DNA from: Clostridia bacterium | Lineage (GTDB): Bacteria; CBDUZB01; JAGLHV01 | Assembly: GCA_030595925.1 (NCBI GenBank) | Contig: JAUVLC010000140.1 | Location: 1 to 5,465, forward strand | Reading direction: 5' to 3' | Length of the DNA: 5,465 nucleotides | Shown: in pieces, positions 609 to 4,519 of the stretch | Numbering within the stretch: position 1 is the stretch's first letter | How the letters are laid out: every line of letters starts with the position of its first letter | Translations under genes and position numbers: made by a program | The notes under the pieces: model-generated | Database searches by the model: none | Seen by the model: only the letters and a program-made list of their open reading frames with translations | Told to the model about the DNA's origin: nothing

Positions 609-1601
609 TTAAGCAGAAAATCTTATCGTGAAAGAAACCTTATGTAAAAGCCCCAAATCATCCATTATCCCAATCCCATAATCAAATTGAAACTGTTCAA
701 ATTCACATCCTATTCCAAGAGTATAAGTATCCGGAGTATAACCTAATTTATAACCGCCTCTTAGTAAATATCTGTGTTGCTTCCAATACTTTCCATATTC
801 AAACCCTAATTTTCTTTTAATTTCCTTTTCTTTTGGTTTTTCCACTTCAAGTGAAAAAAGGCATCCCGGTAACCTATTACTTATGGGGGAGACTTCATTA
901 AAAAACCCCGGATAGATTTTATTTCCTTCAAGATCTAATTTATAAGCTATGCCTCCTTTCAAAGTAAAGGGTAAATCATCTTCTCCCTCACTATATTTTA
1001 TTCCTTTCCCTATGTTTTGAACGGTAAAACCAATACTTAAATTATTATGCATAAGTTTTTTATACATTATTCCCAAATCTACGCTTACCGCCTGAGCGGT
1101 ATATTCTTCTACCAGCGTAGAATGCAGCAATTTCACATTTCCCCCTATAAAAAAACTATCGTTAATATCTCGGGCATAGGATAATATTCCCACATAATCC
1201 CGCTGTGCCTCATAGGAATGAGAATTTCCATCCAAATAATTTATTTTAATTCTTCCCCCGTTTAAATAAAGAAAACCCATTGCCAGGTTACCTCTTTTTT
1301 CCCAGGGGACTACATAGCCTAAAAAGCCAGTCTGAACATCTGCTAATCCTTTAAAATACATTGTGGTTAATTCTTTTTTTTGAATAATGGCTAAGCCGGC
1401 AGGATTACTGAAGAGAGCATTAATATCATCACTCACGGCAACATAAGCTTCTCCCATTCCGAACGATCTTGCCCCCACTCCCTGCCTCAGGGTAAGCCCG
1501 CTGACGGTCCCCCTGCTTTCCTCGGCAAAACAAGATATTGAAATCAATCTAAAAAAATAAACCAAAAATGAAAACAATAAAACCTTTTTTTTTAAATCCA
1601 T
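609..1601 (-). CDS. PorV/PorQ-family outer-membrane beta-barrel protein
   Basis: The 330-residue product begins with a signal peptide (Lys-rich start, hydrophobic 8-24, likely cleavage after CFA at 26). The family signature is clear at residues 41-71: GVGARSFGMGEAYVAVSDD followed by NALFSNPAGLA. This is the start of FadL-like barrels of the PorV/PorQ (formerly UPF0164) group. The rest alternates short amphipathic strands and turns, ending in an aromatic-containing strand (FTIRF), as expected for a barrel of normal length. In Bacteroidota, PorV binds C-terminal signals of type IX cargo; many relatives elsewhere have no known role. The ATG shares one base with the stop of the protease gene (TAATG, 1603-1599), and no good ribosome binding site precedes it, so translation is probably coupled. 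A PorV-like cargo role is inferred from the neighbour; the fold call is firm. Confidence 0.85.
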   Translation of the reverse strand: MDLKKKVLLFSFLVYFFRLISISCFAEESRGTVSGLTLRQGVGARSFGMGEAYVAVSDDINALFSNPAGLAIIQKKELTTMYFKGLADVQTGFLGYVVPWEKRGNLAMGFLYLNGGRIKINYLDGNSHSYEAQRDYVGILSYARDINDSFFIGGNVKLLHSTLVEEYTAQAVSVDLGIMYKKLMHNNLSIGFTVQNIGKGIKYSEGEDDLPFTLKGGIAYKLDLEGNKIYPGFFNEVSPISNRLPGCLFSLEVEKPKEKEIKRKLGFEYGKYWKQHRYLLRGGYKLGYTPDTYTLGIGCEFEQFQFDYGIGIMDDLGLLHKVSFTIRFSA

Positions 1602-2524
1602 TATTTTACCAACGCAATTTTATAGATTTTATCGGTGAAATTTAATTTCACCAGATAAATTCCAGCACCTACTTTATTTCCGGCATCATTTTTCCCCGAC
1701 CAAAAAACCCAATGATCCCCTTCTCCGTAAACATCATCAGCCAAATCCTTTACTAATTCCCCATCTATGGTGTAAATATTTATTTTTATTCGTTTAGACT
1801 CAAACAATCGAAATCCAATGCTACAAGTATCCCCTTTGCTCAGATCAATTAAATTATTAATTAAAGAAACCTTCGCTTCCATAATAAACTCTCCTGTTTT
1901 TGGCCCACTGGATCCGGGATAAAGAGCCCTTATTCCATCTTGATCATTGGGACTTAATGTCCGTTTCTTGGTTTCCCCCCACCCGGCAATCCAAAACATT
2001 GTTGCTTCACTGTCAGAGGAATCTTTCAAATCATCCAATCCTAAAAAATGGCCAATCTCATGGGTAGCAATATTCTGCACATCCATTTTATTACTTTCCC
2101 CTGATGAAGACCACTCAAAATGTTCTCCGTTAAATGTAATATCTGCTTCTATAATCTCGTTAGTACTTTCATTATACCAAACAGTAGCTATAGCAATTGC
2201 ATTTGAAGAAAACCCATAAAGATTCCAACCGGATTCAATCCAGACACAAAGATTGGTTCCATCTAAGGCATATGTTTCTGAACTTGGGCCTTTATAAGTA
2301 AAATCCATATATTGTCCCGAAACATTTTCCCATGAATTAAAAGAAGATATTATCGCTGCATTTTCTCCGGAACAATCAGGAGTTCCATAATAATTGATAT
2401 AATAATCCACAGGAATATCGCTTCGGGCCCATTTACAAGGCAGAAGTTTAAAAGCAAAACTATAATTGCATACTATCCCTAAAAAAATAGTCACTATCCC
2501 TGCTAATCTTTTCCCGAATGACAT
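1601..2524 (-). CDS. Secreted matrixin-type zinc metalloprotease with C-terminal FlgD/T9SS-like Ig domain
   Basis: The product has 307 residues. Residues 1-24 form a signal peptide (cleavage likely after YSFA). The catalytic domain spans about 30-205: EADITFN at 126-132 is a matrixin hallmark, the zinc site is HEIGHFLGLDD (H155, E156, H159, G162, with D165 at the third-ligand position), M176 in 'ATMFW' fits the Met-turn, and LSPNDQDGIRALYP closes the domain. No propeptide with a cysteine switch is present; the mature protein would start directly with the catalytic fold. After a Ser/Gly-Pro linker, residues 215-307 look like a FlgD Ig-like module (INIYTIDGELVKDL, then W-G-ND-G-GIYLVKL) ending IALVK, very similar in layout to type IX sorting domains. 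A GGAGG site (2537-2541) inside the upstream gene precedes the ATG. The gap to the upstream gene is 2 nt. Substrate unknown. Confidence 0.85.
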   Translation of the reverse strand: MSFGKRLAGIVTIFLGIVCNYSFAFKLLPCKWARSDIPVDYYINYYGTPDCSGENAAIISSFNSWENVSGQYMDFTYKGPSSETYALDGTNLCVWIESGWNLYGFSSNAIAIATVWYNESTNEIIEADITFNGEHFEWSSSGESNKMDVQNIATHEIGHFLGLDDLKDSSDSEATMFWIAGWGETKKRTLSPNDQDGIRALYPGSSGPKTGEFIMEAKVSLINNLIDLSKGDTCSIGFRLFESKRIKINIYTIDGELVKDLADDVYGEGDHWVFWSGKNDAGNKVGAGIYLVKLNFTDKIYKIALVK

Positions 2525-2526
2525 TT

Positions 2527-3027
2527 TTATTTCTTTCCTCCGTCAAATTTTTTAATGATATGTTTAATATTTCCTATAAACTGTCTTACCGGCATATTTT
2601 TTCTTTCTACTTTTTCCTTTTTTATTGCAAATTTCCCCTCGGATAATCCGGTTACATAAAACTTGTTTAATTGTTTTTCATCTTTTTTTAAAAAAAGGAT
2701 TACCTCTTCTTCTTCCTGAAAAACAGGCATACCGATAACCTTCAATCTTAAATCCCCTACCTTCCCCCCTAATTGCCTAATTACTATTTCTTTTTTTTCC
2801 TTTTCTCCTTTGATTCTTTCTTTCACCTCAATTTTTATCTCACTAAAAATAAGTGTTTTCTTCTCATTCCATTGGCTGGTAATTTCTTTCACTTTTCCCT
2901 GTACTATTTCTTCGGATGATGTAGTAAGCTCCTCCATACTCATTTTTAATAAAACTGTTGCCGAAAGAGGCAATACAAAAAATATCATCCCTAAAAGAGA
3001 AATCAAAAGTACTCTTTTTTTCTTCAC
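2527..3027 (-). CDS. Small exported protein of unknown function, protease neighbour
   Basis: I chose the GTG at 3027 (166 aa). AAGGGGG at 3034-3040 sits six bases ahead of it, and the product then starts MKKKRVLLIS as a normal signal peptide with likely cleavage after LPLSA (23). An in-frame ATG at 3066 would add 13 residues, but lacks a ribosome binding site and would put residues ahead of the signal. The mature part reads as a compact beta-rich domain: 'EEIVQGKVKEI' then 'FSEIKIEVKERIKG', a GGKVGD turn (87-92), 'GMPVFQEEEEVILFLK' (99-114) and 'YVTGLSEGKFAI' (124-135). I recall similar proteins with the GxVGD...G.P.F..GE.V.LFL...GL..GKF pattern encoded next to bacterial matrixins, but know no function. 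A chaperone or inhibitor of the downstream protease is possible; nothing in the sequence proves it. The tail is Lys-rich. Confidence 0.7.
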   Translation of the reverse strand: MKKKRVLLISLLGMIFFVLPLSATVLLKMSMEELTTSSEEIVQGKVKEITSQWNEKKTLIFSEIKIEVKERIKGEKEKKEIVIRQLGGKVGDLRLKVIGMPVFQEEEEVILFLKKDEKQLNKFYVTGLSEGKFAIKKEKVERKNMPVRQFIGNIKHIIKKFDGGKK

Positions 3028-3033
3028 CCTTAA

Positions 3034-3040
3034 CCCCCTT
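3034..3040 (-). promoter_or_regulatory. Ribosome binding site deciding the GTG start
   Basis: Minus-strand AAGGGGG lies six bases before GTG 3027-3025. The alternative ATG at 3066 is preceded only by an A/T-rich stretch from a dispersed repeat, with no Shine-Dalgarno-like sequence. This favours the shorter 166-residue protein. Confidence 0.65.
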
Positions 3041-3084
3041 ATATACTCAAAAAAACCCACAAACATTACAAAAAATTCTTTTTC

Positions 3085-3121: not shown

Positions 3122-4519
3122 TTAAAAAATACTTATTTTCAATTTTAATTGTTCAAACGCTTTAAAATTTCCACTATAAGGATTACTATACTGTTTAGTT
3201 TTAAACTCCATAATTTCCGCAATAATTTTTAACGAAGAGAGATTAATCTCTTTTTTCTCCCCTTTATTACATTGATTGGCTAAAAATAAAATTTCTTCCT
3301 GCGCATCTATAAACTCCATCTCTTGTATTTCTATTTTTGTATTTTTTTTATTCTCTGAACTAATGTCCCCTTCAAGCGGAGATAAAGTAAAAATTATTTT
3401 TTCCGCCGCTCCCGGATTAAAAAGCTCAATATTAAGTACCGCTCCTTGCTTCTTGTCTTTTTTATAGAAAATAATTTTTTCTTTTTTTCTGCCTCTTCCG
3501 AAAGAAAGAGAATAATCTTTTTTCCATAAAGGCATATCTTCTCCCGTGGCAGTAAAAGTAAAACTCACTTTTCCCGCCTGAGCGCGAGAAAGAATATCTT
3601 GCTCAATAAATGCTTCCACAGTATTTACCCTGTTAGAAAAATTAATTTGTTTGACCCGGCTGGAAGCTATTCCGGACTTATCAGAAAAAACTCTTTTTTC
3701 CAACATTCCCTTTCCCTGGGTAAAATTGAATATTACCGGGATGTTATTTAAAGGAATATATTCTTTCATTTGGTACATTAATTTCACCGAAAGAGGACGT
3801 TTTAAACCGGAAATAGTTTCCCCTTTTTTGTCATAGGGCAATATTTCTATTTTTATTTTTTGCAGGGTATTAGTTGCCTCATTTAATATAGTTCGATAAA
3901 GGCTTTGTGCATCTCCTACTTCTTTTAAAATTTTTAATGTCTGAGCATAATTTTCCAGTGCAGTGCCCACTTCTCCTTTTTGTGTAAGTTTTCCGGCCAA
4001 ATTAAACATTTCCTGTGCTTGATTTTTTTTACGGTTTTTCTCTGCCTGTATTCTTTTTTTTTCTCTTTCTATTTCCGCACGTGGATACTTTAACAAAATG
4101 AAGATATTATAAAGATGATATCCACCTTTTTCTTTCCATTGTTCGTAATACATTTCCTCAAGTTTCACCCCGCTGACCTTAGCTTCTCCCTTTGCTATAA
4201 TCTGGTCCATAATCTCAGAAGAAATTTCATTCTTTTTCTCTTCATAACGGGTTTCTGTTTTTACGCCAAAATATCCAACAATGTCACTTACTGCACTACC
4301 AATAGCACTTTGCTTCCCTTCTTCTAATGTCCCTGCCGCAGTTTTCATCCCTACAAAATATAAAAATCGGCTGTCGGCTGCAGGGGGCTTAGTTATCCAT
4401 TCCGGCTTTTTCTTTTGAGAAGAATAAATTAAATTGGAATCTTTTATTGATTTTGCCGTACACCCAACAAACAAAAAAATAAAACTGACGCTGATACTGA
4501 TTAAAAAAAGTTTTTTCAT
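3122..4519 (-). CDS. LPP20-like lipoprotein with helical-repeat and Ig-like regions
   Basis: The 465-residue product starts with a lipoprotein signal ending FLFVGC, so Cys20 would be lipidated. Residues 38-42 (KPEWI) and 'FLYFVGMKTA...A...A...IVGYFGV' (52-85) match the LPP20/PEWI-type lipoprotein layout, with another strand-rich part to about 145. Residues 146-222 are strongly helical: a Lys/Glu/Arg-rich coiled-coil-like segment, then a TPR-like pair ('AGKLTQKGEVGTALENYAQTLKIL'). From 223, a beta-rich region has an Ig-like or transthyretin-like stretch (IPVIFNFTQGKG...FSDKSGIASS...VNTVEAFI, 260-304). The C-terminal 130 residues are beta-rich and unrecognised. AGAGG (4526-4530) lies at proper spacing before the ATG. 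It is the first gene of the operon. It is probably membrane-anchored facing the periplasm or outside; its function is unknown and an assembly or scaffold role is only a guess. Confidence 0.75.
   Translation of the reverse strand: MKKLFLISISVSFIFLFVGCTAKSIKDSNLIYSSQKKKPEWITKPPAADSRFLYFVGMKTAAGTLEEGKQSAIGSAVSDIVGYFGVKTETRYEEKKNEISSEIMDQIIAKGEAKVSGVKLEEMYYEQWKEKGGYHLYNIFILLKYPRAEIEREKKRIQAEKNRKKNQAQEMFNLAGKLTQKGEVGTALENYAQTLKILKEVGDAQSLYRTILNEATNTLQKIKIEILPYDKKGETISGLKRPLSVKLMYQMKEYIPLNNIPVIFNFTQGKGMLEKRVFSDKSGIASSRVKQINFSNRVNTVEAFIEQDILSRAQAGKVSFTFTATGEDMPLWKKDYSLSFGRGRKKEKIIFYKKDKKQGAVLNIELFNPGAAEKIIFTLSPLEGDISSENKKNTKIEIQEMEFIDAQEEILFLANQCNKGEKKEINLSSLKIIAEIMEFKTKQYSNPYSGNFKAFEQLKLKISIF

Follow-up and report, generated by a model that had tools for sequence, protein, structure and literature searches.

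The window analysed here is the whole of contig JAUVLC010000140.1 (C92), 5465 bases, from a 2.6 Mb genome that is 97% complete (hereafter G000). Its minus strand carries four consecutive genes, for a putative lipoprotein, an unknown 179-aa protein, a matrixin-type protease and a PorV/PorQ-family barrel. In the order of transcription, the features are:

3122..4519, minus strand: putative lipoprotein gene, weakly LPP20-like (PF02169, E 0.017, below the cut-off), heading the conserved four-gene cluster; orthologues in both congeners
2527..3066, minus strand: unknown 179-aa gene, separated by a 2-bp gap from the downstream protease gene; same place in both congeners
1601..2524, minus strand: matrixin-type (M10) protease gene, 307 aa, with an N-terminal signal peptide and a C-terminal domain (CTD); orthologues in both congeners
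2030..2062, minus strand: zinc-binding motif HEIGHFLGLDD (HExxHxxGxxD, residues 155-165) of the protease, read from the sequence
1604..1888, minus strand: C-terminal Ig-like sorting-type domain of the protease, its last 95 aa, ending in KIALVK; FlgD_ig match
1599..1603, minus strand: TAATG, the overlap of protease stop (TAA) and barrel start (ATG) with one base in common, read from the sequence
609..1601, minus strand: PorV/PorQ-family outer-membrane barrel gene, 330 aa (NF033709, 159.8 bits)

The 179-aa gene has no family match in profile searches. Two further elements flank the row. A Group II intron RNA (Rfam RF02005, 76.8 bits) lies at the contig end (5131-5391, minus strand), and the window holds no intron-encoded protein. 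Just downstream of the barrel gene is a palindromic REP-like element (379-446) with 25-nt arms that are 96% complementary; its core also turns up on roughly a dozen further contigs.

The protease and barrel

The initial annotation described a matrixin that ends in a FlgD-like Ig module and whose stop overlaps the start of a PorV/PorQ-family gene as TAATG, and both parts of this description hold. The protease matches Peptidase_M10 (PF00413, E 6e-12, 46.2 bits, cut-off 24), its residues 243-297 match FlgD_ig (PF13860, E 1.7e-6, 28.4 bits, cut-off 27), and the overlap is found at 1599-1603. The signal peptide reads MSFGKRLAGIVTIFLGIVCNYSFA. Asp replaces His as the third zinc ligand, so that the motif is HExxHxxGxxD in all three species of the genus and departs from the matrixin HExxHxxGxxH. 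Asp as the third zinc ligand occurs in snapalysin-type zincins.

The Ig module had also been likened to a type IX sorting tag, a comparison that the fold supports and the sequence profile does not. Against the type A sorting domain model TIGR04183, the CTD scores 12.2 bits and does not reach the cut-off of 23. Its AlphaFold model (pLDDT 94) is an Ig-like sandwich with the seven strands of the type A domain. By VIA-align, the best match is the CTD of PorU (6za2, Z 10.9 over 90 residues), and the CTD of PorZ (5m11) gives Z 9.6; unrelated Ig domains score Z 9-10 too, so the fold match to PorU is supportive only. Other CTD proteins in the same genome pass PF18962 or PF13585.

The barrel lies well within the PorV/PorQ family (NF033709, 159.8 bits against a cut-off of 90) and is above the cut-offs of PF19572 (PorV) and PF03687 (UPF0164), but it stays below the equivalog cut-offs of both PorV (NF033710, 71.5 bits, cut-off 250) and PorQ (NF033711, 104.4 bits, cut-off 220). 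It has no match to the PorP/SprF family PF11751. A search of its sequence against solved structures gave nothing relevant, whereas fold comparison did find matches. The model (pLDDT 87.5) is a barrel of the FadL/PorV type with about 14 strands, and the best fold matches are to Flavobacterium johnsoniae PorV in the translocon (8gl6_F, Z 33.5; 6h3i_F, Z 33.0), with the FadL-type channels (FadL/TodX) at Z 31 and below. By barrel, the nearest named relatives are in FCPU426, Desantisbacteria, Firestonebacteria, Elusimicrobia and WOR-3.

The pair recurs in both congeners, where the genes are again adjacent and overlapping. The four-gene order is identical in congener G001, while the contig of G002 stops within the lipoprotein gene. 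The junction sequences differ from ours and from one another (TGATG in G002, ATGA in G001). Identity to the two congeners is 87 and 67% for the barrel and 79 and 72% for the protease, and dN/dS is about 0.2-0.3 for these two genes and for the 179-aa gene, indicating purifying selection. Because both congeners retain the pair with overlapping ends and dN/dS is this low, the arrangement is more than chance.

Pairing of CTD genes with PorV-family genes

Family searches across G000 return 31 PorV-family matches, 19 of them above the cut-off; some are pieces of one gene, and the matches correspond to about two dozen genes. The CTD proteins number about 28-31. When the surroundings of each barrel gene are mapped, 12 of the 23 assessable PorV genes have a CTD gene as their next neighbour upstream on the same strand, against an expectation of well under one (binomial P ~7e-17); this and the other pairing counts are slightly low, since the gene caller skips or misframes some genes (e.g. 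PorV on C9 and PorU on L379). The paired cargos include the matrixin, a subtilase, a thermolysin-like protease and glycoside hydrolase-like, beta-propeller, Ig-domain and lectin-like proteins. In these very different cargos the Ig domain forms the very C-terminus and has a common ending, K-h-x-h-h-K/R.

The arrangement extends far beyond this genus. Of 139 PorV-family genes in 15 genomes, 95 are immediately preceded by a CTD gene; on the downstream side, the count is 15 of 141. The gap within pairs is at most 60 bp in 73%, and the two genes overlap in 20 pairs. A set of 80 named loci, chosen by barrel similarity alone, holds 35 PorV genes that immediately follow a CTD gene, and these 35 come from at least 10 named phyla. 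The main exception is the Poribacteria (L197-L256), whose PorV-family genes mostly stand without an upstream CTD gene.

Several loci hold barrels of unusual architecture. In L138 (9078-10673) and L135 (10125-12203), PorV-family barrels are fused to OmpA peptidoglycan-binding domains; the L138 fusion gene follows a CHU_C (type-B-like) CTD gene, and its product is a one-protein analogue of PorP plus PorE. The PorV-family barrels of L131, L133, L148 and L140 have long C-terminal extensions, with TPR repeats in the first three. The PorV-family gene at L139 (16191-17169) is split over two frames, probably as a pseudogene or through sequencing error.

Secretion machinery in this and other genomes

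The initial annotation remarked on the lack of a type IX core gene nearby. This is true of the window, a complete contig in which we find none, but the genome encodes a full-length, 1748-aa SprA/Sov homologue on contig C187. It has an SprA_N match and scores 150 bits against TIGR04189 (E 3.6e-44), below the equivalog cut-off of 200, and it has orthologues in both congeners. Searching the whole genome for SprA and PorU, which had been proposed as a check, yields SprA but does not yield PorU. For the PorU sortase (C25 domain), G000, G001 and G002 give matches to the CTD region and no catalytic match, and the same search is above the cut-off in 13 other genomes. The GldM (PorM) model gives zero matches anywhere, PorU- and SprA-bearing genomes and controls included, and therefore says nothing on the motor. 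Elsewhere in G000 (L147, contig C68, 3964-11403), a PorV-family barrel with an extra FlgD-like domain stands beside a 1002-aa TPR protein, ExbB, two ExbD proteins and a TonB-like protein; this row is a possible proton-driven energiser in place of PorL/PorM.

SprA homologues are present in 24 of the 25 genomes examined, some of them in phyla outside the FCB group. Desantisbacteria, Elusimicrobia, FCPU426, Goldiibacteriota and other candidate phyla have both these homologues and tight CTD-barrel pairs, and in most cases PorU is not detectable there. A single genome, from Firestonebacteria (G063, L189), departs from this: it has 36 PorV-family matches, CTD proteins and CTD-barrel pairs with no SprA match at all, which may reflect an assembly gap, a diverged SprA or a genuine SprA-less case. 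According to one review, T9SS genes do not occur outside Bacteroidetes, with other FCB phyla as possible exceptions (PMC11285876); our data argue that SprA, PorV-family barrels and CTD proteins exist beyond that range.

A proposed cargo-receptor pair

The most likely arrangement is that an SprA-type translocon serves this conserved pair, one of many. Our preferred reading, to which we assign a probability of about 0.6, is that the protease is a cargo with a private outer-membrane receptor, so that export by SprA would be followed by capture and uncleaved anchoring on its own barrel. Sec would first export the protease, which would then pass the outer membrane via the SprA-type translocon, whose gene lies on another contig, with the CTD as its sorting signal, and would be handed to its own PorV-family barrel acting as shuttle and anchor. 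Because there is no detectable PorU sortase to remove the CTD, the protease is expected to stay on the barrel, held 1:1 and displayed uncleaved at the surface, as PorU is on PorV. Translational coupling would supply the two partners in equal numbers. Since PorU was searched for and not found, we class the barrel as a member of the PorV/PorQ family with a presumed role like that of a type IX shuttle, and not as part of a proven type IX system.

Known systems provide precedents for the individual steps. In Porphyromonas gingivalis, PorU:PorV and PorZ:PorQ are 1:1 complexes in which the CTDs are retained, and in porU mutants uncleaved cargo builds up bound to PorV (PMC5562754). As in these complexes, the pair described here consists of a CTD-bearing, predicted surface protein (a protease, as is PorU) and a PorV-family barrel. 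The likeness to PorU-PorV extends to the gene order, with the CTD gene first in several lineages, and to the CTD itself, for which that of PorU is the best structural match. Roughly half of the examined PorU loci have the PorU gene directly upstream of a PorV-family gene, which is the order of protease and barrel here. However, the protease here is an M10 metalloprotease whereas PorU is a C25 sortase, and the barrel, under both the PorV and the PorQ equivalog cut-offs, is one of about two dozen such barrels in a genome where PorU was not detected. In F. johnsoniae, cognate pairing of type B CTD cargos with PorP/SprF shuttles has been shown experimentally (PMC12618676, PMC9143113), and there too the cargo gene is followed directly by the shuttle-barrel gene; our pair differs in its FlgD_ig/type-A-like CTD, its PorV/PorQ-family barrel and its host outside Bacteroidota. 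With the canonical Bacteroidota type IX system, G000 shares an SprA/Sov homologue, PorV-family barrels and CTD proteins, but it differs in the non-detection of PorU and in a greatly expanded PorV family.

The strongest competitor, which we regard as unlikely although it deserves serious weight, is that the barrels are interchangeable parts of ordinary type IX-like secretion. Any PorV paralogue would then take any CTD cargo, and adjacency would reflect co-regulation or joint transfer. Many CTD genes of G000 indeed have no adjoining barrel, a single PorV serves all type A CTDs in Bacteroidota (PMC12618676), and a mirror-tree comparison of the 12 pairs in G000 alone gives no significant signal (r 0.07, p 0.34). 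With the genomes pooled, however, within-genome CTD distances follow the distances between the adjacent barrels (rank r 0.41, null sd 0.07, p 0.0005). Duplication of whole pairs would likewise yield covariation, and joint inheritance could account for part of what we see, but the correlation persists (r 0.23-0.33, p 0.006 or less) when close duplicates and divergent barrels are left out. The strict CTD-gene-first order and the short or overlapping junctions also speak against free exchange. The dedicated cargo-barrel pair suggested at the outset is well supported by adjacency in both congeners, by the recurrence of the arrangement across many phyla and by the pooled co-divergence of CTD and barrel.

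Far less probable is a FadL-type small-molecule transporter fed by the products of the protease, with the Ig domain as a plain structural module. FadL/TodX structures are nearly level with PorV in the fold comparison (Z 31 versus 33.5), and FlgD-type Ig domains are known in other settings. Against this, the domain ends very different cargos with the same K-h-x-h-h-K/R motif, beta-propeller, lectin-like and Ig-domain cargos would not supply a transporter, and the NF033709 match of the barrel is far above the cut-off.

Least probable of all is the self-sufficient or reduced secretion unit raised by the initial annotation, in which the barrel itself would carry the protease over the outer membrane: it could draw on the tight coupling of the two genes and on the SprA-negative Firestonebacteria genome, but with an SprA homologue in G000, as in nearly every genome examined, and a barrel model that most resembles PorV, a shuttle rather than a pore, the pair is better read as one of many SprA-served shuttle/anchor modules without detectable PorU.

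A role of the matrixin as a stand-in for PorU seems unlikely: among the genomes covered, the matrixin is limited to this genus, and other PorU-less genomes pair different cargos.

Returning to the private-receptor reading, a sortase-less lineage that holds each cargo on a barrel should have about as many barrels as cargos. There are 1.04 CTD candidates per PorV match (median) in 15 PorU-less genomes, compared with 4.3 in 13 genomes that have PorU (p 4e-5), although an important caveat is that these are proxy counts and that the two groups are largely separate branches, so that phylogeny confounds the comparison; one Cloacimonadota genome deviates at 6.9. The CTD counts are first-look candidates of the PorU model; in G000 they come to 28, in line with about 30 by FlgD_ig. 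The contrast is suggestive, and fits one barrel per cargo where the sortase is absent. The absence of PorU does not explain pairing as such, an idea we discarded, because pairs are found at ~28 of 44 PorV-family genes in PorU-bearing genomes and ~67 of 95 in PorU-less ones; only the CTD/PorV ratio differs.

Reviews restrict type IX secretion to Bacteroidota, or to the FCB group at the widest, and describe one PorV for all type A cargos, in contrast to the pairs described here. A literature search by phylum names, covering few subscription papers, returned no report of cognate pairing of type-A-like CTDs with PorV-family barrels. Our observations suggest that secretion machinery commonly attributed to Bacteroidota also operates in other lineages, there without the cargo-cutting enzyme. 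If the pairs are cognate, the identity of a barrel would predict that of its cargo in each genome, natural covariation would reveal the CTD-PorV code, and ideas on how the sortase branch arose would become testable.

More tentatively, and with more doubt than confidence, we propose that several non-Bacteroidota phyla have a sortase-less, SprA-based system in which every CTD cargo is served by its own PorV-family barrel, at once shuttle and permanent surface anchor, with PorU-PorV and PorZ-PorQ as survivors of this older scheme.
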